From a virus: 26,845 nt of DNA. A program made the translations under genes and the position numbers. Of the stretch, positions 3,791 through 26,362 are shown piece by piece. The stretch's first letter is position 1. The number at the start of each line of letters is the position of its first letter. Below the pieces are notes generated by a model. It was not told the DNA's origin. It made no database searches and worked only from the letters and a program-made list of their open reading frames with translations. The DNA lies in IMG/VR virus record IMGVR_UViG_3300032088_002388, positions 1 through 26,845 of that record. One strand, given 5' to 3'.

Positions 3791-4056
3791 TGCAATTCTT
3801 TCGTAATGTTAAAGATCTAATCGTTAAATTTTGGCGATGGATATTAAGTTGGTTCGAAAACCACCAATATCTTTATGTATCTCATAATCAATATAATTCT
3901 GAAGGTGAGATCATAGACGTACTTGAAAAGAAATTTGAAGTACGTAAATTTTATAAGCAAACTCAAAAGCATATGAAATTTAAAACAATGGAAGGCCATG
4001 TTGTTGAACTTAAAACTGCAACACCCATGGATTATATGACGGAGACTATAGACTAA
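3790..4056 (+). CDS. Small conserved phage protein with aromatic amphipathic N-terminus
   Basis: 88 residues. Residues 1-22 (FFRNVKDLIVKFWRWILSWF) form an aromatic amphipathic or membrane-binding helix; the remainder looks like a small beta domain (KKFEVRKFYKQTQKHMKFKTMEGHVVELK in part). It sits directly before the spanin-like pair and is coupled to both neighbours by TAATG overlaps, so a role at the membrane during lysis is possible but only inferred. Confidence 0.65.
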   Translation: MQFFRNVKDLIVKFWRWILSWFENHQYLYVSHNQYNSEGEIIDVLEKKFEVRKFYKQTQKHMKFKTMEGHVVELKTATPMDYMTETID

Positions 4057-4439
4057 TGCAACAAATATTGATAGGAATTATATTAGTTTTAGGTTTAGGC
4101 GGTTATTGGTTATACAACGAAAACCAAACACTAGCTGCAAATAACCTAGCGCTAGAAGGTGCAGTTGAAGAGCAGAAAGCTGCATTCAATGCAATGAAAG
4201 AATCTTTCGAGAAACAAGGGCAAGCCTTGCAGAATATGTCTCGAAAAAATGCAGAAATAGAAGCAGAAAAAGCCGAGTATTTGGCCATATTTGCTAGACA
4301 TAATTTAGATATGTTGGCCATTAAAAAACCTGGTCTTATTCAAAACAGGTTTAATAATGCTAGTCAACTAGTGATGGAGGGATTAGAGGATGACACTGAG
4401 AAACTTTACAGTATTGACACTCCTAATAGCGATAACTAG
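4056..4439 (+). CDS. Probable inner-membrane spanin (Rz-like)
   Basis: 127 residues. A single N-terminal membrane segment (about 4-19, ILIGIILVLGLGGYWLY) is followed by a long charged coiled coil (about 25-85) that would lie in the periplasm. This is the classic i-spanin layout: spanins join inner and outer membranes and drive outer-membrane disruption at the last step of lysis of Gram-negative hosts. The next gene, a lipoprotein, starts inside this one in another frame (overlap 4390-4439), a typical Rz/Rz1 arrangement. Assigned from architecture and context, not sequence similarity. Confidence 0.7.
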   Translation: MQQILIGIILVLGLGGYWLYNENQTLAANNLALEGAVEEQKAAFNAMKESFEKQGQALQNMSRKNAEIEAEKAEYLAIFARHNLDMLAIKKPGLIQNRFNNASQLVMEGLEDDTEKLYSIDTPNSDN

Positions 4440-4935
4440 TGGTTGTTCGCTAATACCAAGTAAAAAGGTTGAGATCATATCAAAGCCTATTGAAATAGAA
4501 ATAATGCAACCCGCTCTACCTAGAGCAGTTGACTTAACAGCACCAAAATGGTACGTAGTATCAGAAGCTAAAATAGCAAATCCATGTGTAGCTACAATTT
4601 CCTTTGAGCCTAAGAAGTTTGACGAAAAGGGTGTAGAGAAACTAAAAAGACCTAAAACATGTGCAAAAGAAGATACAGAAAATCCTGATTGGCCAGATGG
4701 ATATACGTATTTAGATAGATTTCTAGATGAAATGAAAGAACAAAATAACGGAGAGATTGTTTTCGTTGCTACTACGATTGGTGATTATAAAGTAATGGCA
4801 GAAGATATGCAAGAACTTAAAAGGTATATCAAACAATTAGGCGAAGTAGTAATATACTATCGTGACGTAACAATGACTGACGGCCAAAAAGGCGCAGCAG
4901 TTGGAATTAAGGTGAATAAAAATGAAAACAACTAG
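4390..4935 (+). CDS. Probable outer-membrane lipoprotein spanin (Rz1-like)
   Basis: 181 residues with a lipoprotein signal: basic N-terminus, hydrophobic stretch VLTLLIAITSGC, and lipobox Cys19. After the Cys come Pro-rich segments and a small alpha/beta C-terminal domain (EIVFVATTIGDYKVMAEDM, then ELKRYIKQLGEVVIYY). Similar lipoproteins follow the i-spanin in T4-like marine phages. At 181 residues it is long for an Rz1 protein, so the C-terminal domain may do more than bridge membranes. Starts 50 bases inside the i-spanin gene with GAGG just upstream; overlaps the lipase gene by 14 bases. Confidence 0.7.
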   Translation: MTLRNFTVLTLLIAITSGCSLIPSKKVEIISKPIEIEIMQPALPRAVDLTAPKWYVVSEAKIANPCVATISFEPKKFDEKGVEKLKRPKTCAKEDTENPDWPDGYTYLDRFLDEMKEQNNGEIVFVATTIGDYKVMAEDMQELKRYIKQLGEVVIYYRDVTMTDGQKGAAVGIKVNKNENN

Positions 4936-5680
4936 AATGAAAGATGACAGATCTCAAATGGAGAGGGCTTTAATTGCAGCTAAATTGTCAGCAATTGCAT
5001 ATAAAAACGAAAAACCTGCAATAACTGCAGCTAAAAAGTTAGGTTTTGCTTGGGTACAATTAATCTCCAAAGGTGGAGCAGAAGTATTAATAGCTAAAGA
5101 TCGTAATGATCTTTGGTTTGCATTTAGAGGTACTGAACCTTCAAAATTAAATGATGTTATGGCCGATCTTAAACTTGCAAAGCAAGCAGCTGTAGCAGGT
5201 GGAAAAGTTCATTCTGGATTCCAAGAAGAAGTGAATGATTTATGGATGGACATTTTAAAAGAATTAGAACACAATGCACAATTAAAAGTTAAAAAAGATG
5301 TGTATATGACAGGTCATTCTTTAGGAGCTGCAATGGCAACAATCGCCGCAACTCGATACGAACCTGTAGAATTATTTACTTTTGGATCTCCAAGAGTAGG
5401 TGGACCTAAATTCATTAGGAATATTAATTGTCCACACCTTAGATTTATGAACAACAACGATATCGTCTGTAGAATCCCACCTGCATGGTTAGGATTTAGA
5501 CACCATGGGGAAATGATCTATTTTAATAAAGATGGTAATCAACAAGCTAAACCCACATGGGGCGATTTATTTTATGGTATACTAAACTCATGGAAAAGAT
5601 TTAAATTCTTTGATGGTATAGTAGATCATGGAATGCCAAATTATGTTAAAGCAATTACTAAAGCTTCGAAAGAGCAGTAA
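4922..5680 (+). CDS. Class 3 (alpha/beta hydrolase) lipase-like protein
   Basis: 252 residues. The lipase class 3 signature is complete: FRGTE at about 68-72 (oxyanion region), nucleophile elbow TGHSLG with Ser133, Asp180 in NNNDIVCRIPP, and His236 in VDHGMPNY, in the order and spacing of the family. No signal peptide, so it would act in the cytoplasm or reach membranes after holin opening. Start chosen at ATG 4922 with AAGGTG at 4909-4914. Its place right behind the spanin-like pair suggests it hydrolyses host phospholipids during lysis; a role in lipid metabolism is the alternative. Substrate cannot be read from the sequence. Confidence 0.85.
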   Translation: MKTTRMKDDRSQMERALIAAKLSAIAYKNEKPAITAAKKLGFAWVQLISKGGAEVLIAKDRNDLWFAFRGTEPSKLNDVMADLKLAKQAAVAGGKVHSGFQEEVNDLWMDILKELEHNAQLKVKKDVYMTGHSLGAAMATIAATRYEPVELFTFGSPRVGGPKFIRNINCPHLRFMNNNDIVCRIPPAWLGFRHHGEMIYFNKDGNQQAKPTWGDLFYGILNSWKRFKFFDGIVDHGMPNYVKAITKASKEQ

Positions 5681-15384: not shown

Positions 15385-15701
15385 ATTTCGAAGGTACTTA
15401 TACGCCTTTAAGGCATGATCTTACAATACAACCAGCAAGTCATGGTTTAGGATTAGTTGCAACCGAAACTATTCCTGCAGGAACTTTTTTAGGTATATCT
15501 CACGTATGGGAAATACAACGATCTGAATGGATAAGAACACCATTAGGAGGTTTTGTAAATCACTCAGAAACACCAAATGCATGGATCTATTGGAATCAAG
15601 ATCATGATCTTGGATGGCAAAGAGAAATGTTCGCTATTAGAAATATCAAAGCTGAGGAAGAAGTCGTAGTTTATTATCAACTACCAGAATATGATGACTG
15701 A
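15381..15701 (+). CDS. SET-domain-like protein (putative protein lysine methyltransferase)
   Basis: 106 residues. It carries the SET fold signature in short form: GLGLVATETIPAGTFLG (about 22-38), then GGFVNHSETPNAW with the NHS motif at 60-62, and REMFAIRNIKAEEEVVVYY ending with the conserved Tyr region. SET proteins transfer methyl groups from S-adenosylmethionine to lysines; the substrate here cannot be read. The domain lacks pre- and post-SET regions, as in other compact bacterial and phage SET proteins. Host or virion protein modification is possible. Confidence 0.8.
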   Translation: MNFEGTYTPLRHDLTIQPASHGLGLVATETIPAGTFLGISHVWEIQRSEWIRTPLGGFVNHSETPNAWIYWNQDHDLGWQREMFAIRNIKAEEEVVVYYQLPEYDD

Positions 15702-15975
15702 TCAATGGCATGGAGGAAAAGGTTCTAAACGAAGAAAATCTGATGAAAACAAATATGCAGATAATTGGGATAGAATATTTGGAAAGAAAAAACGTGGGGC
15801 TGTAGCTCAGTTGGGAGAGCGCGTCCCTTGCACGGATGAGGTCGCAGGTTCGACCCCTGTCAGCTCCACCACCGAAGAAGATTGGGATATGTTACCCGAT
15901 GTAGAAGATCTAGAAAAAATTGTAGATCGAGAACTTAAAAAACTAGAGGAATGGGAAAATGAAAATAAGACATGA
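15691..15975 (+). CDS. Conserved phage protein whose ORF runs through a tRNA gene
   Basis: 94 residues as an ORF. The first 35 (HGGKGSKRRKSDENKY, then DNWDRIFGKKK) are a pattern I recognise as a small conserved phage protein that normally ends soon after IFG. Codons for about residues 36-60 are the tRNA-Ala gene at 15796-15871, giving the well-known false tRNA peptide. The frame then stays open for about 34 acidic residues (DMLPDVEDLEKIVDREL type) to TGA 15973-15975. Either the tRNA was inserted in frame, or two small genes (15691 onward, and one starting at an ATG near 15887) are joined by chance. The GroES gene overlaps the 3' end. Confidence 0.55.
   Translation: MMTDQWHGGKGSKRRKSDENKYADNWDRIFGKKKRGAVAQLGERVPCTDEVAGSTPVSSTTEEDWDMLPDVEDLEKIVDRELKKLEEWENENKT
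15796..15871 (+). tRNA. tRNA-Ala (anticodon TGC)
   Basis: A 76-base cloverleaf: acceptor stem GGGGCTG pairs with CAGCTCC (one G-U), discriminator A and encoded CCA at 15868-15871; D arm TAGCTCAGTTGGGAGAGC; anticodon arm CGTCC-CTTGCAC-GGATG, with anticodon TGC reading GCA/GCN alanine codons; T arm GCAGG-TTCGACC-CCTGT. The GC content is far above that of its surroundings, as for any tRNA. It lies inside an open reading frame on the same strand. The encoded CCA suggests a functional, self-sufficient gene. Confidence 0.96.
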
Positions 15976-16239: not shown

Positions 16240-17658
16240 ATGTACGATTATAACTATATCACAGAAGCCAAAGAAAAGAACATGAAAATGTCTGTAATTA
16301 TATTGGCTAATTCACTGGACGATGGAACAGCAGCAAAAGTTATGGCTGATGTATGTTCGTTTAATGATATAGAATGCAATTTAATTGATATTGATAAAGC
16401 ATATTTAGGTGATGCCGATATTGAACTGAGAAAAGTTGATATTCGTAATATCGATGGAGAAGGTAAAAAGGTTACATGTAATATAGATTCAACAATCGTA
16501 TTTACAAGAGGTGGAGCAATTGCGACTCAGGTAGGACAAGCTTTAGTATCTACATTACAAACCGCGGGATTCTTTATGGTTAATGATCTTGAATCCATGA
16601 TGTTATGTGATAATAAAATGGCAACTACAATTGCTATGAATAGATCAAATGTTAAAACACCGCGCACAGTTATATTGAACAACGATGAAAGTATCGAATT
16701 TGCTCATAAACAAATTGGTAGTAAATTTCCTGTAATTGTTAAAACTTTGACCGGAACGCAAGGTGTAGGTGTAACAAAAGTTGATTCGATGAGTTCTTTA
16801 AGGTCTGTATGTCAATCTTTATGGAAGTTTGATGCACAGCTGTTGATGCAAGAATTCTTAGAAATGGAATATGATATCAGAACTCTTGTAGTTGATGGTA
16901 AAATATTAGGTGCAGCAAAAAGAATCACGGCTAAAGGTTCTGAATTTAGATCAAATGTTCATCAAGGCGCAGATACGGTTCCTTATATATTAAAGGAAAG
17001 GGAAATTGAAATAATTCTTGCAGCTTCACGAGTAAGTGGAGGATATTATGTTGGTGTAGATCATTGTATAGTTGATGGAGAGATTTATATTTTAGAGGTA
17101 AATGGATCTCCTGGTGTAAAGTCACATTATAACGCATATGATTTAGATACACAAAAATCTGTAGGTAAAAAATCAGACAATAAATTATTTGATATATTTT
17201 TAAAATATTTGTTAGAAGAAAATAATAGAACTAAATTCTTTAGACTTGAAGCAGGTTTTATTGAAACAATTATCCTTGAAGGTATGGAAGATGATCCAAT
17301 ACGAGCTAAACTTGATACCGGCAATGGAACAAATGCATCAATGTTAATGGTTGATGATCTTAAGGTAAAAGATAAAAAAGTATTTTGGAAAAAGAATGGT
17401 AAGAAATTTGAATCTGATCTTATTGGTTTATCTAAAGCAAGACATATGGAAACGGTCGATGAAAGACCAGTTATTGAACATACAATAACATTTAATAATA
17501 GATCCTATCTAATACATTTAGGATTATCGCTTAAAAATACAGCATCAGAGATGTTGTGTAATAGAGATTTAATAACACTTTTTGGTGTATCTGTAAATCC
17601 ATCTAAACGATTTGCTTTAACACCATACACGGCAAGAAATGACAACTACGACGTTTAA
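16240..17658 (+). CDS. RimK-like ATP-grasp ligase fused to an aspartic-protease-like (RimB-type) domain, with prohead-type tag
   Basis: 472 residues. About 15-325 is a RimK-like ATP-grasp ligase: KTLTGTQGVGV (ATP-binding loop, 168-178), QEFLEMEYDIR, and EVNGSPGVK (286-294) with metal-binding residues. RimK adds glutamates to ribosomal protein S6. About 335-465 is a second domain starting LEAGFIETIILEG with KLDTGNGTNAS (Asp359-Thr-Gly), the hallmark of the RimB/ATP-dependent protease family usually encoded next to rimK. The N-terminus MYDYNYITEAKEKN contains I7-T8-E9 before A10, like the T4 capsid-targeting tag. A late promoter lies five bases upstream. Inference: a virion-associated protein-modifying enzyme; the target is unknown. 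Confidence 0.88.
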   Translation: MYDYNYITEAKEKNMKMSVIILANSLDDGTAAKVMADVCSFNDIECNLIDIDKAYLGDADIELRKVDIRNIDGEGKKVTCNIDSTIVFTRGGAIATQVGQALVSTLQTAGFFMVNDLESMMLCDNKMATTIAMNRSNVKTPRTVILNNDESIEFAHKQIGSKFPVIVKTLTGTQGVGVTKVDSMSSLRSVCQSLWKFDAQLLMQEFLEMEYDIRTLVVDGKILGAAKRITAKGSEFRSNVHQGADTVPYILKEREIEIILAASRVSGGYYVGVDHCIVDGEIYILEVNGSPGVKSHYNAYDLDTQKSVGKKSDNKLFDIFLKYLLEENNRTKFFRLEAGFIETIILEGMEDDPIRAKLDTGNGTNASMLMVDDLKVKDKKVFWKKNGKKFESDLIGLSKARHMETVDERPVIEHTITFNNRSYLIHLGLSLKNTASEMLCNRDLITLFGVSVNPSKRFALTPYTARNDNYDV

Positions 17659-17798: not shown

Positions 17799-18068
17799 AT
17801 GGCAGATTTAGACAATTTAGATTTTGACTTTGGTTTTACAGCAGTTGATGAACATGAACTCGAAGCTGTACAAACCGTAAGTAAAACCGCTGACACTGCA
17901 GCATCAGAATTAGCTGCAGCTGAAGCAAAACTAGGTAAGTTATATAATGCAATATTACCATTGCTCAGTAACTTGAAGAAAAATCCTGAAAAGGAATACA
18001 TACTTTGGCCAAATAGGACAGAGAAAATTGAACAATTTGAAGATGTTATTGCTAACATCATAAAATGA
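17799..18068 (+). CDS. Small conserved T4-like phage protein, probably late/structural
   Basis: 89 residues. An acidic N-terminus DLDNLDFDFGFTAVDEHEL leads to an Ala-rich helix and then LYNAILPLLSNLKKNPEKEY and LWPNRTEKIEQF. I recognise this pattern (DFDFGFT-VDE, then LY--ILPLL, WPNR) from T4-like marine phages, where it is conserved but unassigned. A late promoter and its position beside the endolysin suggest a structural or assembly role. Confidence 0.72.
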   Translation: MADLDNLDFDFGFTAVDEHELEAVQTVSKTADTAASELAAAEAKLGKLYNAILPLLSNLKKNPEKEYILWPNRTEKIEQFEDVIANIIK

Positions 18069-18079
18069 GGATACCACAA

Positions 18080-18520
18080 ATGGATATTAATAAATTAAGA
18101 GAGCAACTAAAAATAGACGAAGGACAGGTCAATGAAATTTATAACGATCATCTTGGCTATGCTACTTTTGGTATCGGTCATTTGGTTATTGATGGTGATC
18201 AAGAAAAGGGTCAACCATTGGGCACACCAGTTACCGAACAACGCGTTTATGAAGTTTTTGAGAAGGATGTACAAACGGTAATTGCCGATTGTAAAAAATT
18301 GCATGAAGGTTGGGATGGATATCCCGAGGAAGCAAAACAGATCATTGCAAATATGATGTTTAACATGGGTTATACTCGACTTTCTAAATTTAAAAAACAC
18401 AATACAGCGCTTCAGTGCGGTGATTGGAAAACAGCAGCTGTCGAAGGAAGAGATTCAAGATGGCATAAACAAGTCACAAATAGAGCAGAAAGGCTCATGG
18501 TGAGACTTGAAAATATATAA
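18080..18520 (+). CDS. T4-type lysozyme (endolysin, glycoside hydrolase 24)
   Basis: 146 residues from ATG 18080, chosen for the GAGG at 18067-18070; an ATG at 18065 in an ATGA overlap is the alternative. Residues KIDEG...YNDHLGYATFGIGH line up with T4 lysozyme: catalytic Glu14, Asp23 and Thr29 correspond to T4 Glu11, Asp20 and Thr26. Later conserved blocks are MMFNMGYTRLSKF, SRWHKQVTNRAERL and a short C-terminus. It hydrolyses peptidoglycan after a holin opens the membrane; no signal peptide. It sits about 12 kb from the spanin-like genes, so the lysis set is split. Confidence 0.93.
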   Translation: MDINKLREQLKIDEGQVNEIYNDHLGYATFGIGHLVIDGDQEKGQPLGTPVTEQRVYEVFEKDVQTVIADCKKLHEGWDGYPEEAKQIIANMMFNMGYTRLSKFKKHNTALQCGDWKTAAVEGRDSRWHKQVTNRAERLMVRLENI

Positions 18521-18805: not shown

Positions 18806-19243
18806 ATGGCCTATTCGCAGAAGGTAATAGACAGATTTAATAATGTATTAAATTCTCCAGAGAAATTCTCTGTAGGCCGATTCGATCCAAAAGAATCCAA
18901 TGTAGCAACCGGAATGACAGGCGCACCCGCGTGTGGTGATGTCATGAAGCTACAACTGAAATTGAATGACAACGAAGAAATCGTTGATGTTAAATTTAAA
19001 ACTTATGGATGCGGATCCGCTATCGCATCTTCTTCATTATTCGTTGATATGCTAATGGGTAAAACCATAGAAGAGGCAAAACTTGTTAAAGACAAAGATA
19101 TTGCCGAAATATTAGAACTTCCGGCTATCAAACTTCATTGTTCTGTATTAGCTGAAGATTCGATTCGTCAGGCAATAAGAAATTGGGAAGATAAAAAAGC
19201 CCATAGACAGCACAATGGAGAACCTAATGATCGAGTTGACTAA
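18806..19243 (+). CDS. iscU: IscU/NifU-like Fe-S cluster scaffold
   Basis: 145 residues. All three cluster-binding cysteines are present: Cys43 in APACGD (with Asp45), Cys69 in YGCGSAIASSS, and Cys112 in KLHCSVLAED (with His111). This fits a working IscU scaffold, which receives sulfur and iron and passes [2Fe-2S] clusters on. The LPPVK-type chaperone-binding motif is replaced by LPAIK (about 105-109), close to the usual form. It is followed by an A-type carrier gene overlapping by 17 bases, so the phage carries two parts of one pathway and would rely on host IscS and chaperones. Confidence 0.93.
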   Translation: MAYSQKVIDRFNNVLNSPEKFSVGRFDPKESNVATGMTGAPACGDVMKLQLKLNDNEEIVDVKFKTYGCGSAIASSSLFVDMLMGKTIEEAKLVKDKDIAEILELPAIKLHCSVLAEDSIRQAIRNWEDKKAHRQHNGEPNDRVD

Positions 19244-19544
19244 TGAAGCAATTCAACAATTACTCAAACAAACCCAAAATGAGGGGAATGATACTGTCAG
19301 AATTGGTTATTATCCTGGCGGTTGCAACGGTTTTAAATATGTTATCGCTTTTGCTGATACAGTCACTGGCGATGATCATATCATAGACTACGGAAAGTTT
19401 CTTATAGTAGTAGAAACTGGCCAACTTCACAATTTTACTGGATTAACCTTAGATTACATTACTGAGGGACTCAATTCAGAATTCAAATTCATAAATCCTA
19501 ATGCAACTGCGTCCTGTGGTTGTGGAGAATCAGTAGCCTTTTAG
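19227..19544 (+). CDS. A-type Fe-S carrier (IscA/ErpA/HesB-like)
   Basis: 105 residues from ATG 19227, chosen for the GGAGA at 19218-19222 over ATG 19215. The three conserved cysteines are present: Cys33 in PGGCNGFKY and Cys97/Cys99 in ASCGCGES, with the usual spacing. A-type carriers bring clusters to target enzymes. Next to iscU it probably supplies host or phage Fe-S proteins late in infection; possible clients cannot be read from this window, although the YkgJ-like protein is a candidate metal protein. Confidence 0.92.
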   Translation: MIELTNEAIQQLLKQTQNEGNDTVRIGYYPGGCNGFKYVIAFADTVTGDDHIIDYGKFLIVVETGQLHNFTGLTLDYITEGLNSEFKFINPNATASCGCGESVAF

Positions 19545-19564: not shown

Positions 19565-19572
19565 TATAAATA
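19565..19572 (+). promoter_or_regulatory. T4-type late promoter (TATAAATA), head of the curli-type operon, 5 bases from AUG
   Basis: A perfect octamer, then GTACT, then the ATG at 19578. No other promoter or terminator is evident before 26362, so this element probably drives the whole CsgF-CsgG-curlin-FecR-cyclase run late in infection. Confidence 0.78.
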
Positions 19573-19577
19573 GTACT

Positions 19578-19871
19578 ATGGAAATATTCGAACTTATAAT
19601 GGAGGTAGGTACTCCTATCGCCGGCTCATTAGTTATGGGCTATTTTATATTTTTGATATTAAAACAGATACTAGGAGGTCTCGTTGACTCAATTAGTACT
19701 CTTACTATGTTTACAAAAAGCTTAGAAACAAGAGTTACTACAATGAATAATGAGATTGTAAAAATAGACTTATTGGTAAGTAGTGCTTTAGAATTAACAC
19801 CGCCAGTAGACAGAGTAGCAAGAGCGTCAAACTTTGTTGAAGACGGTAAAATTGATGCTAGGAGGGATTAA
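19578..19871 (+). CDS. Small membrane protein A, paralogous to the next gene
   Basis: 97 residues from ATG 19578, five bases after the late octamer; the frame extends to 19557 but the promoter excludes that start. One membrane segment at about 10-33 (GTPIAGSLVMGYFIFLIL) and a coiled coil (about 40-70). The block G-P then MGYFI, then K-I matches the next protein, so the two are likely tandem paralogues. T4-like marine phages often carry such a protein; role unknown, holin-like or envelope-related. Confidence 0.75.
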   Translation: MEIFELIMEVGTPIAGSLVMGYFIFLILKQILGGLVDSISTLTMFTKSLETRVTTMNNEIVKIDLLVSSALELTPPVDRVARASNFVEDGKIDARRD

Positions 19872-20200
19872 TGGAAGTAAGCCAAGATCCTACAATTGTA
19901 GCGTTAATAAATGATTATGGGTTCCCAGTCGTTTTGGCTGTGGGTATGGGATATTTCATATATTATGTGTGGAAATTTATTTCAGATGAATTGGAACCTA
20001 AAATAGAAGAAATGCATTTTGCATTAATTCGATTAATTGATCAAATACGAATGCTTGATCAAGATATGATTAGATTACAACAAAAAGTAAATGTTGTACT
20101 TGAATACAGAGAGCGACAAAAATTCATCGAAGATCTCGAAGAAAAAGAAGCTCTTATGGAGAAAAAAAATGGAAGAAATAAAACCACTAATAAGTCGTAA
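19871..20200 (+). CDS. Small membrane protein B, paralogous to the preceding gene
   Basis: 109 residues, TAATG overlap with its paralogue. A membrane segment at about 17-38 (YGFPVVLAVGMGYFIYYVW) is followed by a coiled coil (ALIRLIDQIRMLDQDMIRLQ and on) and a charged tail. I recognise this as a widely conserved T4-like phage protein of unknown function. A membrane anchor plus cytoplasmic or periplasmic coiled coil suits assembly or lysis roles. The csgF-like gene starts 32 bases inside its end. Confidence 0.78.
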   Translation: MEVSQDPTIVALINDYGFPVVLAVGMGYFIYYVWKFISDELEPKIEEMHFALIRLIDQIRMLDQDMIRLQQKVNVVLEYRERQKFIEDLEEKEALMEKKNGRNKTTNKS

Positions 20201-20729
20201 TTCTAAAATAGCCATATGGGCTTTTATAGTTATTTTTTTACTTGGATCCGCTGAAGATATATATGGCGATGAATTAGTACATGAATTTAAAAATCCTTCG
20301 TTCAGCGGAGTAGGAACCTCATCTCATTATCTTACAATTGAGAATCAGGAATTTAGTAGAAGACAAGCAATAGCTGAAAAAATAGAGAGTGCATTACAAG
20401 CAGCACAAAGAGATGCAGAAAATACAACATTAGCAAAATTTATGCGTAATCTCGAATCGAGAATTTATGCTCAATTATCTAAACAGCTTGTAGAATCATT
20501 ATTTCAATCATGTACAGCTGAAGCAATAGCTGCAGGAACATGTACAGAAACAACATTTGGTAGTTTTGTCCTAGAAGGAAATACAATTACATATCAAAAA
20601 ACGATATGTGATGAAAGTCTATGGGCTTGTACTCAGGGTGAACAAGTTATTGTTATGACTATTGTTGCTGAAGATGGAACAGAAACACAAATAGTAATTC
20701 CAATTGGCGCTGGATCGACTGGTGGATAA
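20169..20729 (+). CDS. csgF: CsgF-like curli assembly protein
   Basis: 186 residues from ATG 20169 (GGAG upstream); the longer frame to 20091 overlaps the previous gene and is unlikely. A hydrophobic N-terminal segment (AIWAFIVIFLLGSAEDIYG) is a signal peptide or anchor. The mature N-terminus LVHEFKNPSFSG followed by SHYLTIEN matches CsgF, whose N-terminal F-NP-F-G segment inserts into the CsgG channel and forms a second constriction. The rest is a helix and a beta region with two Cys pairs (SCTAEAIAAGTC; CDESLWAC). It is longer than E. coli CsgF (138 aa). csgG follows directly. Confidence 0.85.
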   Translation: MEEIKPLISRNSKIAIWAFIVIFLLGSAEDIYGDELVHEFKNPSFSGVGTSSHYLTIENQEFSRRQAIAEKIESALQAAQRDAENTTLAKFMRNLESRIYAQLSKQLVESLFQSCTAEAIAAGTCTETTFGSFVLEGNTITYQKTICDESLWACTQGEQVIVMTIVAEDGTETQIVIPIGAGSTGG

Positions 20730-21684
20730 GAAGCTTATATTATTAATAGGAGTCCTTCTTATGCAAGGATGTGCTTCTATTGTCCCGCCAGGAGGATTAT
20801 CAGCAACAAATTGTAATCCTGCATTAAATTTAGCGTGTGTAGAATCACCAGAAGTTGTTGAGTTACCTACACATGAAGAATTAAGAAATTTACCACCAGC
20901 AGAAAAACAAATAGTCGTAGCAGTATACGGATTTCCTGATAAAACAGGACAAAGAAAACAAAAAGGAAATGCTGCAATGTTCAGTACAGCAGTATCACAA
21001 GGCGGTGATACAATGCTTATTGACGCATTAAAAAATGCAGGAAAAGGACAATGGTTTAGAGTAGTAGAACGCGTAGGAATAGATCATCTTACAAGAGAAC
21101 GTCAAATCGTTCGTACTACAAGAGAACAATATGGTGAAAAGGATGAAACTGGGTTAGCCCCGCTTCTTTTCGCAGGGATCATTCTTGAAGGAGGTATCAT
21201 TGGATTCGATACTAATATCGAGACTGGGGGAATGGGAGCTCGAACTCTTGGTATTGGTTATTCACAACAATACCGAAGAGACATAGTAACTGTTTCATTA
21301 AGAGCTGTCAGCACATTGACAGGTGAGATTTTACTAAATGTGCAAACGTCAAAAACCATTTTGTCGATCGCTGATGGCTATGACGTATTTAAATTCGTTG
21401 ATATGGACACTCAACTTGTAGAAATAGAAGATGGGATGACAGAAAACGAATCGGTGACACGGTCGCTTCGCTCAACAATTGAAGCAGCTGTGTTAGAAAT
21501 GATATACCAGGGGGAAGAATTAGATTTTTGGAAAATAAATTGGCCAATGAAACAAATCATTGAAAATAAAGTCGAACAGATTATAGACGAAGCTGAAATT
21601 ATATATACTAAGCCAATAGAAGATCCAGAAAACATTCCGGAAGAAGTTATTACCCCTGAAACAATAGAGGAAATAAGAGGATGA
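20722..21684 (+). CDS. csgG: CsgG-like outer-membrane curli secretion channel lipoprotein
   Basis: 320 residues from GTG 20722 (TTG 20704 is an alternative). Lipobox LMQGC puts the lipid on Cys17. The core matches E. coli CsgG closely: VAVYGFPDKTGQ, MFSTAVSQGGDTMLIDAL, WFRVVERVGIDHLTRERQIVR, GGIIGFDTNIETGGMGAR, STLTGEILLNVQTSKTILS. CsgG forms a nonameric outer-membrane pore that exports curlin subunits. By ungapped alignment from memory, the constriction Phe56 is kept (MFSTAV) while Tyr51 and Asn55 are Gly and Met. The acidic C-terminal tail (IEDPENIPEEV...) is an extension. Overlaps csgF by 8 bases and the curlin-like gene by 4. Confidence 0.95.
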   Translation: MDKKLILLIGVLLMQGCASIVPPGGLSATNCNPALNLACVESPEVVELPTHEELRNLPPAEKQIVVAVYGFPDKTGQRKQKGNAAMFSTAVSQGGDTMLIDALKNAGKGQWFRVVERVGIDHLTRERQIVRTTREQYGEKDETGLAPLLFAGIILEGGIIGFDTNIETGGMGARTLGIGYSQQYRRDIVTVSLRAVSTLTGEILLNVQTSKTILSIADGYDVFKFVDMDTQLVEIEDGMTENESVTRSLRSTIEAAVLEMIYQGEELDFWKINWPMKQIIENKVEQIIDEAEIIYTKPIEDPENIPEEVITPETIEEIRG

Positions 21685-22409
21685 ATATTTTTAAAAGATA
21701 TATCGCATTCGCTCTTTTATTATGCCCCGTAGTTGTGTTCGCTGGAGCCAATGATAACAAAATTCTTTTAGATCAATCTGGAGATACACTAAGGCTATAC
21801 GTAGACCAAATCGGTTATGGTAATAAGCTTTGTGGAACTATCTCAAGTGCAGATTGTGCTACTGATTGGGTTTTGACTGGTAACACTGTCACAATGGATA
21901 TAGATATGATAGGTAACTTGAACCAAATCTTTGGTCCAACACTATTTGATTCTACTGATGTTGACTTAAAGTTAACTGGAAATAGTAACATATGGGATTG
22001 GAACGTAGGTTATGGTGGAAGTGCTGATTCATCTGTAATGGATGTTGACATAACCGGTTCTTCAAATACTTTCGATATAGATTGGGGTTATACAGCTTCA
22101 GCTGAAAGATTGGATTTTGATTTAGATATAACCGGTGGATCAAACGTATGGAACATTGATATTAATGCTGATGATGTAACTTGGAATGTGGATGTTGTAG
22201 GAAGTTCAAATAACTTCTTAACAGCACAATCCGATGGTGCAGATAATTCATTAACAATGGAATACATAGGTTCAAATGGAGATATCGATATTATTCAATC
22301 ATCTGGTACATGCCCAACTGGCGTGAGTGGATGTTATGGAATAATAAACGCGGATTTTGACACAGAGAATGGCATTGTTGACATTAAACAAAAAGATACT
22401 GGCGACTAG
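21681..22409 (+). CDS. Curlin-like repeat protein 1, candidate secreted amyloid subunit
   Basis: 242 residues with a signal peptide (IAFALLLCPVVVFAG). The body is made of about seven units of the type hydrophobic-Asp alternation, G-x-x-N, then another strand: QIGYGNK, MIGNLNQ, LTGNSNI, ITGSSNT, ITGGSNV, VVGSSNN. This is the strand-loop-strand pattern of curlin (Q-G--N) with Asp and Trp in place of many Gln. Directly after csgG with an ATGA overlap, it is the natural substrate of the channel. Amyloid formation is inferred, not shown. Four Cys and an acidic composition are unusual for CsgA. Confidence 0.82.
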   Translation: MNIFKRYIAFALLLCPVVVFAGANDNKILLDQSGDTLRLYVDQIGYGNKLCGTISSADCATDWVLTGNTVTMDIDMIGNLNQIFGPTLFDSTDVDLKLTGNSNIWDWNVGYGGSADSSVMDVDITGSSNTFDIDWGYTASAERLDFDLDITGGSNVWNIDINADDVTWNVDVVGSSNNFLTAQSDGADNSLTMEYIGSNGDIDIIQSSGTCPTGVSGCYGIINADFDTENGIVDIKQKDTGD

Positions 22410-23514
22410 TCTATTACTGATTAGTTCAACAGCTTTTGCCAATGATGTTGGCAATATAACTGAACACAAGGGCAGTGGTGGAATTACTCGTGAAGGTGAG
22501 TCATTTGCCACTGATCTTGGTTTAGGCGTTATTGCAATGGATCATATTGAAACAGTTAATGGTCGATTAAAATTAGATTTTATTGATTCTTCTGTACTTA
22601 GATTAACTGAACATACGGAAGTTACATTATACGAATATTATTACAATTCTAAAACCAAAGATGGTGGAATTGGAATGAAAATGGTCAGTGGTACTGCAAG
22701 ATTTTCTACTGGCAGATTAGGTTTATTACCTAAAGAAAATATAGTAATTGATACTCCAACCGCCACAGTGGGCGTACGTGGGACGGATTTTACGACTTCA
22801 GTTGATGAATTGGGAAGAAGTTTAGTAATTCTCCTTCCGGAAACTGAATGTACTATAGATGGTGATTGTTCACCGTCAGGAGAAATTACGGTAACAAATG
22901 AGGGCGGTGTAGTAGTCCTTACAGAAGCATATCAAGCCACAATGGTGTCAAGTTATGATACAGCACCAGCACAACCAGTTACGCTTCAAAATATAAATTT
23001 AAATATGATTGACAATATGTTTATTGTTAATCCACCAAAAGAAATACAGGATCAACAAGAGGAAACTCAAGCTAATACTGCGGTCAATTCTAATGGCCTA
23101 CTTGATTTCACTGAGCTCGATACTGATTATCTGGCCGATGATTTTTTAGCAGAAGATGATTTAGAATTCAATGAACTCGATATGGATTTACTTGATGTCG
23201 ACTTTTTACAAGACATATTGGTTGCTTTAGAAGAAATAAATATTTTAAAAAATAAACAAATTTTATCATCTGCAGGTGGTTCCGGAAATATAGTTGGTAC
23301 TGCTTTAGGATTTGATAAAAATACACAATATAATACAATAATAGATCAAGGTGCTGGTCAAATTTGGTTTTATAGAGAAGTAAATGGAGTTATATCGGTA
23401 AGAATTCCGATAGATTCAAATACAACAGTGGAGAGTGAAAATGAAGGTAAGAAAAATCTTATCAGTGTTGGCGATGGTCAGTCTGTCGTTATCATCATAC
23501 GTCAAAGCGGATAA
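22369..23514 (+). CDS. FecR-domain periplasmic protein
   Basis: 381 residues from ATG 22369, preceded only by a weak AGAG; other start codons upstream are possible. Signal peptide ILATSLLLISSTAFA, then a typical FecR domain at about 30-140 (GESFATDLGLGVIAMDHIETV, VNGRLKLDFIDSSVLRL, then IVIDTPTATVGVRGTDF). FecR domains are periplasmic and signal envelope or ligand state. An acidic Leu/Asp repeat (about 245-285) and a C-terminal beta domain (GDGQSVVIIIRQSG) follow. The gene overlaps its neighbours by 41 and 74 bases in other frames. FecR proteins often accompany CHASE2-cyclase genes in bacteria, as here. Confidence 0.88.
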   Translation: MALLTLNKKILATSLLLISSTAFANDVGNITEHKGSGGITREGESFATDLGLGVIAMDHIETVNGRLKLDFIDSSVLRLTEHTEVTLYEYYYNSKTKDGGIGMKMVSGTARFSTGRLGLLPKENIVIDTPTATVGVRGTDFTTSVDELGRSLVILLPETECTIDGDCSPSGEITVTNEGGVVVLTEAYQATMVSSYDTAPAQPVTLQNINLNMIDNMFIVNPPKEIQDQQEETQANTAVNSNGLLDFTELDTDYLADDFLAEDDLEFNELDMDLLDVDFLQDILVALEEINILKNKQILSSAGGSGNIVGTALGFDKNTQYNTIIDQGAGQIWFYREVNGVISVRIPIDSNTTVESENEGKKNLISVGDGQSVVIIIRQSG

Positions 23515-24265
23515 TACAAACTCAGTTATCATAAGTCAAGTATCAGGTGTATCAACAGATAACTTGAATTTGAATATTGAACAGATAGGTTATAATAATA
23601 AAGTCAATCTTTCTATTGCTCACGATAATAACACACTACTCTTTAAACAAGAAGGTAATAATAACAAAATATCTTGGGTTGACTATTGGGGATCAGGATT
23701 AGCTTATGGTGGTGATTTAGACGGTTCTGGTAATAATTTACATTTTGAACAAAAGTGTACAAGAGGAGCCGGTAATTGTTCTCAATCAGTTATAGGATTT
23801 CATATTAATCATCCAAACAACGTAGTTCGTTGGGGTCAAGGTACAATATTGACAGATATAAATGATACAACTTTTTCAAACGATGGAGATGAAGGTGGTG
23901 GCCATAGATTAAATTTAGATATTCATGGAGAAGATAACAAACTAGTAGGTTATCAAAGAAATGGTAGTTTAAATAATTATAACGGACACACAGCTACAAT
24001 TTATTATTATTCAGATAACAATGAATTTTTTGTTAAACAAGAAACAGATGGTGCTAAGACACTTTCATTGATAACATACAATGACGGAAATACAGGTACA
24101 ATCACACAATCTGGTAATGGAGCTCATAATGCTACAGTAACTTTGACTGGTACAAATCCCACTACATTTAATTTAACTCAAACTAGTAATACAGCTCAAT
24201 CATATTCATTAACTCAAAATTGCCAAACATCAGGTGGATGTTCGGTTAGTGTTACACAAAACTAA
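23441..24265 (+). CDS. Curlin-like repeat protein 2, candidate secreted amyloid subunit
   Basis: 274 residues from ATG 23441 (GGAGAG upstream), with signal peptide ILSVLAMVSLSLSSYVKA. Curlin-type units are clear near the start (IEQIGYNNKVNLSI; FKQEGNNNKISW) and end (ITQSGNGAHNATVTLTG; LTQTSNTAQ; SLTQNC). The middle (about 85-200) is Gly/Asn/Asp-rich and less regular. It is closer to bacterial CsgA/CsgB than protein 1 because it keeps Gln. It starts 74 bases inside the FecR gene. The pair may act as major and minor (nucleator) subunits, by analogy with CsgA/CsgB; that is inference. Confidence 0.85.
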   Translation: MKVRKILSVLAMVSLSLSSYVKADNTNSVIISQVSGVSTDNLNLNIEQIGYNNKVNLSIAHDNNTLLFKQEGNNNKISWVDYWGSGLAYGGDLDGSGNNLHFEQKCTRGAGNCSQSVIGFHINHPNNVVRWGQGTILTDINDTTFSNDGDEGGGHRLNLDIHGEDNKLVGYQRNGSLNNYNGHTATIYYYSDNNEFFVKQETDGAKTLSLITYNDGNTGTITQSGNGAHNATVTLTGTNPTTFNLTQTSNTAQSYSLTQNCQTSGGCSVSVTQN

Positions 24266-24429
24266 TGTCAAATTGGATTTTTAATAAACTCGCCCCGTAT
24301 GCTATAAGATTTAGAGAATGGTCTAAAGGAAAAACGTGGGTTCAAATCCCATTATGGATTCTTATATTGTGGATGTTAGGTTTTGCAAATCCATATTGGT
24401 GTGTTTATCCAGTTTGTTGGATAAATTAA
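24265..24429 (+). CDS. Small membrane protein (54 aa)
   Basis: ATG 24265 overlaps the previous stop (TAATG); TAA at 24427-24429. One membrane segment (WVQIPLWILILWMLGFAN) with a Trp/Tyr/Cys-rich C-terminus (PYWCVYPVCWIN). Placed in the curli-type operon between the second curlin and the cyclase; probably an envelope accessory, function unknown. Confidence 0.6.
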   Translation: MSNWIFNKLAPYAIRFREWSKGKTWVQIPLWILILWMLGFANPYWCVYPVCWIN

Positions 24430-24506
24430 TGAGAAGAAGATTTTTATATTTTAAATATGGATTTCCACAATCGAAGAAAGGGTCTATTCTAGACATATAC
24501 GTATGA
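24429..24506 (+). CDS. Mini-ORF (25 aa) coupling to the cyclase gene
   Basis: ATG 24429 overlaps the previous TAA by one base, and its TGA overlaps the cyclase ATG (ATGA at 24503-24506). The peptide is basic (MRRRFLYFKYGFPQSKKG). Without it the cyclase start would have no nearby ribosome binding site, so this ORF may serve mainly for translational coupling. Confidence 0.45.
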   Translation: MRRRFLYFKYGFPQSKKGSILDIYV

Positions 24507-26362
24507 AATATTTAACAAGCATTTGGACAGTTATAGCTGTTATTGCATTTGGATTGTTTCTTAAAATATCCAATGTTCCTCAAATTGAACAAATCCAGCT
24601 TATGGGATTTGACGCAAAAATTCAATCACTACCCAAACAAAAAGACGAAGATGTAATTCTTTATGAAATTGGAGAAGGTACATTAGAAAAATGGGGTCAA
24701 TTTCCATTACCTCGTCAATACTATGCCCAAATGATATCTGACTTAATAAATGCAAATGCCGAAATTAAGGCTTTTACGATTATGTTCCCAGAGGCCGACA
24801 GGTTTGGAGGAGATCCAGCATTTGAATCGTGGATTAAAGACTCTGGAGTGGTTCTATCACAAAAAGCCGATCCTCGTGGAAGATCAGACGTAGCTCCATA
24901 TGTTGGAACTGCCATGAAAGGCGAAGGCGATCCTATGCAATTTCTTCAAGAATACGAAAAAATTCTAACAAATGTAGAAATAGTTGAAAGACATGCTTGG
25001 GGAGCAGGAATATCTAATGTAGCTCCAGAAGTTGATGGAATAGTACGTAAGTTTCCTTTAGTTGTACAAGTTAATGGTCAAAGATATCCATCATTATCGG
25101 TAGAAATTATTAGAGCTGAGAATCAGACAAAGGGTTATACAATTAATACTGATCCAGATCTTGGAATAGTAGATCTTTTTATACCACCAAAATTACATTC
25201 AAAAACAAATTCGGATGGAACAGCTTATATTAACTATTCAATAACGCACGATCGTTATGAAGCGGGAGTTGACACTCTTCCAGATCTTCGTGGGAAAACA
25301 GTTCTGATTGGTGTTTCGGCTCTTGGGATTGTGCCTGAGATTCTGACTCCGTTAGGGTTAAAGTTTCCCCATGAGATTCAAGCATCGGCTCTATCTTCGA
25401 TCCTTTCAGAGGATTCAATAATCCGTCCTTATTGGGCTGATTTGGCGGAAATAGGTCTAATTCTAATTGGGTCTCTGTTGATTCTTTCATGTGTTTATTT
25501 CTTTCCTGCGATAATCGGATTAGGCGCCTTTGGCGTTGTTGGTGCTGTAAGCTTCTATTTCTCCAGCTATTTTTGGACGAATTCACTATATCTCCTTGAT
25601 TGGACATTCGCTATAGTATTATATATAATAGTCTTCGCGCATGCAAGTTTTAATAACTTTTGGATCCAATTTAAATTAAGACAACAAATTAAAGGTCAGT
25701 TTGGTACATATCTTTCACCTGATATGGTGAATATGTTGATTAAAGATCCAAGTTTAATGAAGCTTGGGGGTGATAGAAAGGAAATGACATTTTTATTCAT
25801 GGATATATGTGGATTTACCCCAATATCGGAATATTATAAGAATAAAGATGATCCCGAAGGATTAGTAGAATTAGTCAATGAATTCCTCGATGCAATGACA
25901 AAAATCATTCTCAAAAATGGAGGAACAATTGACAAATATATGGGTGACTGCATAATGGCATTTTGGAATGCACCATTACCTTGTAAAAATCACGCTGAAA
26001 TGGCAGTTAAATCAGCAATGGAAATTGAAATAAAAGTAAATGAACTCAAAGAAATCTATAAAGAACGTGGTCTTCCTGATATCAATGTTGGGACTGGCAT
26101 TAACACCGGGGATTGTATTGTTGGTAACATGGGTAGTGAATCCAGATTTGACTATTCGGTTATTGGAGATGCAGTCAACCTTGCTGCTCGACTCGAGGCA
26201 ACTGCTGCCCGTCATGAATACATAGATTACAAAACTATCATCTCAAGCTTTACAATGAAACAACTCCCAGAAGGATATTTCTGTGAGAAGATTGGTGATA
26301 TCAAAGTAAAGGGTAAAGAAGAAACCATCTCTATATTCTCCCCTGGAATATACCGTAAGTAG
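24503..26362 (+). CDS. CHASE2-domain adenylate cyclase (class III)
   Basis: 619 residues. Layout: an N-terminal membrane segment (about 5-21), a periplasmic CHASE2 sensor (about 30-300), three membrane segments (about 316-381), and a cytoplasmic class III cyclase domain (about 425-605). Catalytic residues are in place: metal Asp434 (FMDICGFT) and Asp482 (DKYMGD), adenine-binding Lys478 and Asp556 (SVIGD), transition-state Asn559 and Arg563 (NLAARLE). Lys and Asp at the purine site favour ATP, so it should make cAMP. The sensor faces the compartment through which FecR and the curlin-like proteins pass. The part of the gene at about 25260-25560 is unusually GC-rich. Confidence 0.93.
   Translation: MKYLTSIWTVIAVIAFGLFLKISNVPQIEQIQLMGFDAKIQSLPKQKDEDVILYEIGEGTLEKWGQFPLPRQYYAQMISDLINANAEIKAFTIMFPEADRFGGDPAFESWIKDSGVVLSQKADPRGRSDVAPYVGTAMKGEGDPMQFLQEYEKILTNVEIVERHAWGAGISNVAPEVDGIVRKFPLVVQVNGQRYPSLSVEIIRAENQTKGYTINTDPDLGIVDLFIPPKLHSKTNSDGTAYINYSITHDRYEAGVDTLPDLRGKTVLIGVSALGIVPEILTPLGLKFPHEIQASALSSILSEDSIIRPYWADLAEIGLILIGSLLILSCVYFFPAIIGLGAFGVVGAVSFYFSSYFWTNSLYLLDWTFAIVLYIIVFAHASFNNFWIQFKLRQQIKGQFGTYLSPDMVNMLIKDPSLMKLGGDRKEMTFLFMDICGFTPISEYYKNKDDPEGLVELVNEFLDAMTKIILKNGGTIDKYMGDCIMAFWNAPLPCKNHAEMAVKSAMEIEIKVNELKEIYKERGLPDINVGTGINTGDCIVGNMGSESRFDYSVIGDAVNLAARLEATAARHEYIDYKTIISSFTMKQLPEGYFCEKIGDIKVKGKEETISIFSPGIYRK

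Follow-up and report, generated by a model that had tools for sequence, protein, structure and literature searches.

A curli-type operon with FecR and CHASE2 adenylate cyclase genes in a T4-like marine phage: predicted fibre export and a possible link to cyclic AMP

The stretch of viral DNA analysed here (IMG/VR record IMGVR_UViG_3300032088_002388, 26,845 nucleotides [nt]; hereafter the window) carries an operon of the alphaproteobacterial curli, or type VIII secretion, kind at 19578-26362, in which a FecR-domain protein and a CHASE2 adenylate cyclase accompany the curli genes. In the reading favoured here, held with moderate confidence, this operon of a T4-like marine phage is expressed late and exports curlin-type adhesive fibres, with FecR and CHASE2 providing feedback to cyclic AMP (cAMP). 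Few large accessory operons are as widespread in ocean phages as curli modules, yet, to our knowledge, the published accounts all leave their use open.

The proposed mechanism would have five steps. (i) CsgG, CsgF, FecR, and both curlin-like proteins would reach the envelope through the host SecYEG. (ii) CsgG and CsgF would form the outer-membrane exit. (iii) The curlin-like proteins would become surface fibres, the second being sometimes a glycan-binding adhesin. (iv) FecR, as a soluble periplasmic sensor, would gauge periplasmic curlin, either awaiting export or on its way out. (v) It would set the activity of the inner-membrane CHASE2 cyclase, whereby fibre export would be reported as cAMP. 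The sequences themselves show the gene set and its conserved order, the compartments, the catalytic residues, the shared motif, the integrity of the module, and its cellular counterpart, whereas the fibres, the contacts of FecR with curlin and CHASE2, the activation of the cyclase, and the adhesive use are inferred. The features of the operon, with lengths in amino acids (aa) and one transmembrane segment written as one-TM, are as follows.

19565..19572, plus strand: octamer TATAAATA, T4-type late promoter; its first base stands 13 nt before the first gene's ATG
19578..19871, plus strand: T1, a 97-aa, one-TM coiled-coil protein (phrog_18771)
19871..20200, plus strand: T2, a 109-aa paralogue of T1, with relatives showing weak likeness to a holin family (phrog_4898)
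20169..20729, plus strand: CsgF-like putative extracellular chaperone with N-terminal pore motif FKNPSFSG (Pfam CsgF, 6.4e-9)
20704..21684, plus strand: CsgG-like predicted outer-membrane lipoprotein pore, TTG start, lipobox MQGC (Pfam, 8.2e-49)
21681..22409, plus strand: curlin-like protein 1, Asp rich; signal peptide; eight G-x-x-N turns
22369..23514, plus strand: FecR-domain protein, also delimited as 22357-23514 (Pfam FecR, 3.9e-11; structure model; Foldseek; C-terminal motif)
23441..24265, plus strand: curlin-like protein 2, signal peptide present; Curlin_rpt in relatives, with PA14 or GLEYA as well in some
24265..24429, plus strand: 54-aa open reading frame (ORF) with one hydrophobic segment, present in 10 loci among those searched
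24503..26362, plus strand: predicted inner-membrane CHASE2 class III adenylate cyclase, catalytic residues complete, IIIb-type Ser552

Operons of this kind have been reported before, and the window adds a further member in a marine T4-like virus. Zaragoza-Solas (2020) reported csgF and csgG and proposed “sibling capture” (PMC7029224), while Buchholz (2022) proposed a lysis-related pore for the phage Melnitz (PMC9004378). Wittmers (2022) found pelagi-podo- and myophages to carry CsgF, CsgG, CsgA/B, FecR, another CsgA/B, and adenylate cyclase behind a “histidine kinase”, with expression seen in metatranscriptomes (PMC9599517). An initial annotation of the window had pointed to curli genes in SAR11 myophages, correctly, as these three papers attest. 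The operon is also present, gene order included, in HTVC008M and Melnitz, whose CsgG is 47% and 42% identical to that of the window and whose cyclase is 40% and 31% identical. No type VIII secretion genes were found in MW574966 within the 45 kb read of its 60 kb.

What is new here is the integrity of the module, corrections to the identities of T1/T2 and FecR, a curlin-type end on FecR, a cellular operon, and a search that found no canonical cAMP receptor. Of these, the last three are the main surprises. The corrections (no kinase, no iron anti-sigma factor, no known cAMP reader in SAR11-type hosts) redirect the hypotheses worth testing, and the curlin-ending FecR leads to a concrete proposal for cellular sensing of amyloid export.

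The operon and its export machinery

Do these genes form one working unit, as the initial annotation held? All the genes that it named are located on the plus strand in a single run, and every Pfam match is over cut-off (CsgF 6e-9, CsgG 8e-49, FecR 4e-11, CHASE2 1e-31, cyclase 8e-20). It had missed that T1 and T2 (19578-20200) belong to the module, as well as the 54-aa ORF and a 73-nt gap before the cyclase gene. Viral contigs were scanned with CsgG, the cyclase, and FecR as anchors, and the relatives obtained numbered 421, 445, and at least 147, respectively; the best 80 of each were kept, yielding 237 loci, a set that is redundant and biased toward the window. With profiles built in this analysis, the gene order in relatives reads T-T-csgF-csgG-curlin-FecR-curlin-cyclase. 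Phages with csgG-like genes and no curlin, FecR, or cyclase genes were looked for, and the full module, that is, all six gene kinds, was present in 76 of 78 untruncated loci, the remaining two lacking T only. Nor was CsgG ever missing from FecR- or cyclase-anchored loci with more than 5.5 kb upstream. This integrity argues for one working unit. In one related phage locus, a SoxY/SoxZ protein lies between FecR and the cyclase.

The CsgG/CsgF machinery for curlin export is predicted from conserved motifs: the CsgG lipobox is found in 191/202 sequences and the CsgF pore motif F-x-N-P-x-F-x-G in 155/192 relatives. The CsgG profile matches the solved CsgG/CsgF structures of Escherichia coli (3x2r, 6l7a, 6si7) at 7e-72 and is homologous over its length. 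The N-terminal pore motif of E. coli CsgF is of the FRNPNFGG type, and the motif of the window's CsgF is of the same type. The two systems differ in the pore-constriction segment, which is PYPASNF in E. coli and QKGNAAMF in the window, and in that the window operon, unlike E. coli curli, has no CsgE, CsgC, or CsgD.

How curlin-like are the two putative substrates? G-x-x-N curlin repeats had been claimed for both. The claim stands for protein 1, in which the motif occurs 8 times against a shuffle mean of 2.3 (0/2000 shuffles reach 8), and falls for protein 2, whose 7 occurrences, against 4.4 by composition, are no excess (255/2000 shuffles). Protein 2 would be a curlin by its relatives only. 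Matches to Curlin_rpt were obtained for 32/37 relatives of protein 1 (best 7e-6) and for 24/48 second-position proteins (best 8e-19), with passing scores of 26 bits in Melnitz and 33 bits in the second curlin of HTVC008M. The latter also carries PA14, again over cut-off; among the second-position proteins, PA14 occurs in 3/48 and GLEYA in 1/48. Both domains are known in carbohydrate-binding adhesins. The presence of Curlin_rpt, PA14, and GLEYA in second-position proteins favours an adhesive use at the surface. The structure model of protein 1 is all-beta, with a predicted local distance difference test (pLDDT) score of 84. Among predicted viral proteins, Foldseek matched this model to “Curlin associated” phage proteins (top three with probability 1.0, TM-score 0.44-0.74), which are the same family and add little support.

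FecR, the cyclase, and cAMP

The window's FecR consists of a signal peptide, a PupR-like beta domain, an acid disordered linker, and a C-terminal beta domain ending in I-x-I-x-Q. In the structure model (pLDDT 80), the beta domain occupies residues 32-197, and the signal peptide leads straight into the FecR domain. Pfam and topology prediction found no anti-sigma domain and no membrane helix in the protein, which is predicted to be soluble and periplasmic. Foldseek retrieved the PupR cell-surface signalling domain (1e-4) and other anti-sigma factors. The periplasmic FecR fold (6ovk, 1e-4; 4m0h) is common to the window protein and the FecR/PupR regulators, while the acid linker and the C-terminal beta domain with its curlin-type end are the window protein's own. 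A role as an anti-sigma iron regulator was rejected, the protein having no anti-sigma part and no membrane helix and starting with a signal peptide.

The same features bear on an option raised by Wittmers (2022), in which phage CsgG would be an uptake pore for large nutrients or siderophores and FecR an iron regulator (PMC9599517). The operon holds no CsgE gate, so the pore may be open. With a FecR that has a signal peptide and neither a cytoplasmic anti-sigma part nor a membrane helix, with curlins and CsgF always kept, and with FecR and CHASE2 paired in bacteria (see below), this option appears very unlikely.

The N-terminal part of FecR resembles 5ix9, the surface-anchoring domain of an antifreeze adhesin, with a root-mean-square deviation of 1.2 over 64 columns (E 0.03); a profile comparison gave E 0.015 over positions 22-95. 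Cell-surface-anchoring domains of this kind sit in an export pore that leads out of the periplasm. At the other end, 188/192 phage FecR chains finish in [ILV]x[ILV]xQ plus 0-3 residues, against 4/2117 other ORFs, and 325/376 curlins have the same terminal strand motif at most 9 residues from their end. This shared short motif suggests that FecR makes contact with curlin or with the exit that curlin uses. A more specific proposal, offered tentatively as possible if rather doubtful, is that FecR is a curlin-mimicking gauge whose C-terminal strand joins or caps periplasmic curlin, its occupancy being read by CHASE2; an amyloid-export-to-cAMP pathway of a few alphaproteobacteria would have been acquired by phages and would now serve another use without a cAMP receptor.

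The cyclase had been described as a full-length class III enzyme with all catalytic residues, and these were located: D434 and D482 (metal), K478 (adenine), and N559 and R563 (transition state), along with S552. Across 176 aligned cyclase sequences, D434, K478, and D482 are invariant. In 22/176, of the Melnitz type (L003 and relatives), the transition-state Asn (residue 559, window numbering) is Ser, the catalytic residues being otherwise conserved, and in the Melnitz type this place in the operon appears to be filled by a catalytic domain of another type. Class IIIb is recognised by a second substrate position with Ser or Thr, where equally many (22) cyclases have Asp. By predicted topology, CHASE2 is periplasmic, like FecR, and the catalytic domain cytoplasmic.

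What would read the cAMP? It had been claimed that the phage couples envelope state to cAMP. That claim lacks a reader of the cAMP, none having been found in 18 phages and only 4/79 genomes offering a candidate domain. These are among the results that weigh against fibre export with feedback to cAMP. The cyclic-nucleotide-binding (cNMP-binding) family PF00027 was found in 0/18 module-bearing phage records, including the complete HTVC008M and Melnitz, and a phage-encoded canonical cAMP receptor was rejected on this count. Among 79 SAR11-family genomes (0.7-1.6 Mb, from the family of a probable “Ca. Pelagibacter” metagenome-assembled genome [MAG]), a cNMP-binding domain occurs in only 4, and a class III cyclase in only 2. 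On the export side, Pfam detected none of CsgE, CsgC, and CsgD among the operon's products, as the initial annotation had said; the absence of CsgE counts here, with the reservation that the three are not required for the alphaproteobacterial subtype, since alphaproteobacterial curli also lack them (PMC3521004). The window's own curlin-like proteins score below the Curlin_rpt cut-off (0.41 and 0.78). Foldseek gave no significant solved-structure match for protein 1 in the PDB; the model of the putative beta-solenoid is all-beta, but no solved solenoid was matched significantly. FecR's C-terminus was also considered as a whole curlin repeat and this was rejected: the profile comparison was negative, and the end motif alone, which is short, is shared. 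Finally, no clumping was observed in Melnitz-infected cultures (PMC9004378).

A cAMP without a receptor could have a reader of a new kind, act through its making (ATP use, disturbance of signalling), or be received in the window's own host. Assigning a SAR11 host from the tRNA was tried and rejected, its identity to SAR11-family genomes being only 80-82%; this tRNA-Ala(UGC), at 15796-15871, lies wholly inside the ORF 15691-15975, which reads through it in frame. The second option can be stated as an explanation of its own, in which the cyclase serves for itself: cAMP in a receptor-less host would drain ATP or disturb nucleotide signalling or defence, the curli linkage being inherited from a donor operon. 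The orphan cAMP and the conserved catalytic residues fit this, but conservation extends to the CHASE2 sensor part as well as the catalytic part, and in these loci the cyclase gene does not occur apart from the curli module, which makes the explanation improbable.

The lack of clumping also speaks for a different purpose of the same machinery, namely, fibres that mainly mask the surface against other phages rather than aggregate cells. Glycan-binding domains on the surface products of some relatives would suit such masking; late expression, however, follows most of the superinfection that would matter, and masking as the main purpose is possible but on the unlikely side.

Cellular counterparts and origin

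Wittmers (2022) treats FecR and the cyclase as foreign to bacterial curli operons (PMC9599517), which three MAGs contradict. Of the 80 bacterial loci holding a CsgG relative, 3 encode the series csgF-csgG-curlin(s)-fecR-CHASE2 cyclase but no T genes. Two of them belong to Caulobacteraceae MAGs (L243, L244) and the third, on a 705-kb contig, to Hyphomonas sp. TMED17 (L245). Judged from sequence, their flanks are ordinary cellular genes, e.g., for TonB-type receptors. The order is that of the phage operon, and fecR and the cyclase gene overlap; a difference is that the curlins precede FecR instead of flanking it. Unlike the 18 module-bearing phages, the three carriers hold cNMP-binding proteins (4-7 matches each). 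The cellular operon is rare: no further full-length match to the FecR profile was found in 385 genomes sampled from the class, 299 from the order, and 299 from the family, samples that overlap in part. Because the operon exists without T in these three alphaproteobacterial MAGs, FecR and the cyclase are most probably not phage additions; they would have come with, or be common to, a bacterial curli operon.

In the CsgG tree, a single clade unites the phages with the three cells and separates them from other bacterial CsgG (support 100/99), and the cellular operons stand beside the window's group, inside the phage diversity (96/94); the cyclase tree likewise places them among the phages. For CsgG and the cyclase alike, the cellular sequences group with the phage ones, and the other bacterial sequences tested fall outside. 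Phage monophyly is not rejected (approximately unbiased test, P of 0.137), which leaves both directions of transfer, cell to phage and phage to cell, compatible with the tree. Some bacterial MAGs, with the labels Sphingobacteriales, Flavobacteriales, Pelagibacter, and probably Pirellulales, also contain phage contigs bearing the module (L241, L242, L246, and probably L252); these contigs were excluded from the cellular count.

The pairing of FecR with CHASE2 in bacteria, stated in the initial annotation, extends beyond curli. Of 90 alphaproteobacterial FecR matches listed by hand compilation, 18 lie within 8 kb of CHASE2, where about 1 would be expected from gene numbers. A precedent is a Burkholderia biofilm operon with a FecR-LysM gene beside a CHASE2 histidine kinase (PMC5192318); there, too, a periplasmic FecR neighbours a CHASE2 sensor, the output being a kinase and no curli genes being reported. 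In Sinorhizobium meliloti, CHASE2 cyclases with NsrA respond to an extracellular protein via an outer-membrane barrel (PMC13001267), a comparable outer-membrane route, likewise with no curli genes reported.

Late expression, T1/T2, and lysis

Late expression, as claimed from the outset, is predicted from the octamer core ATAAATA, found at most 100 nt before the module in 92/153 relatives. The count of TATAAATA in the window, 6 against 5.4 expected, is no excess over chance. Its placement is more telling: all six lie on the gene strand, and four (10413, 14443, 16227, 19565; also L002) stand exactly 13 nt before an ATG. Over the viral loci as a whole, an ATG follows the octamer at exactly 13 nt in 146/692 cases, against 1/742 for a control octamer. 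Since the TATA box of T4 late promoters sits about one helical turn before the transcription start (PMC2988020), the first codon would be at or near the mRNA 5' end, and late transcripts in these T4-like marine phages may be leaderless, beginning at the start codon.

T1 and T2 are paralogues of the same family, and the T2 gene overlaps csgF. They adjoin csgF upstream in HTVC008M, Melnitz, and the window and are for that reason evidently the gene(s) named “HK” by Wittmers (2022) (PMC9599517). Neither that histidine kinase nor the iron regulator given there for FecR holds here. The 331 members of the T family are 97 aa long at the median and mostly have a single hydrophobic segment, and 137/331 contain no His; Pfam found no kinase family in T1/T2, and a histidine kinase identity was rejected. 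T1/T2 are not present in the three cellular carrier genomes, which marks them as the phage's own addition. The holin family phrog_4898 matches 4/8 T members (best 1.8e-5, over only about 20 N-terminal residues), a weak likeness and a lead only.

Could the module then time lysis? The initial annotation had listed lysis roles among the possible purposes, and for Melnitz it has been proposed that CsgG, or T1/T2, acts as a pinholin or gated pore and times lysis by depolarising the cell (Buchholz 2022, PMC9004378). The late promoter and the one-TM, faintly holin-like T1/T2 agree with this idea. The window, however, has its lysis genes apart from the module: Rz/Rz1-like overlapping spanins (4056-4439, 4390-4935), a lysozyme (18065-18520), and a coiled-coil protein with weak holin likeness (655-1053). 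CsgG as the lysis pore was judged unlikely for this reason. CsgG is moreover a predicted outer-membrane lipoprotein, and the conserved curlins, FecR, and cyclase would be left without a use. Lysis timing thus finds no support in the window's gene content and seems quite unlikely.

Two further observations concern neighbouring genes. NifU-like and IscA/HesB-like iron-sulphur assembly genes lie directly upstream of the curli operon, at 18806-19544. A class 3 lipase is encoded at 4922-5680, adjoining the spanin genes, and a RimK-type ATP-grasp ligase that has an additional C-terminal domain at 16240-17658.

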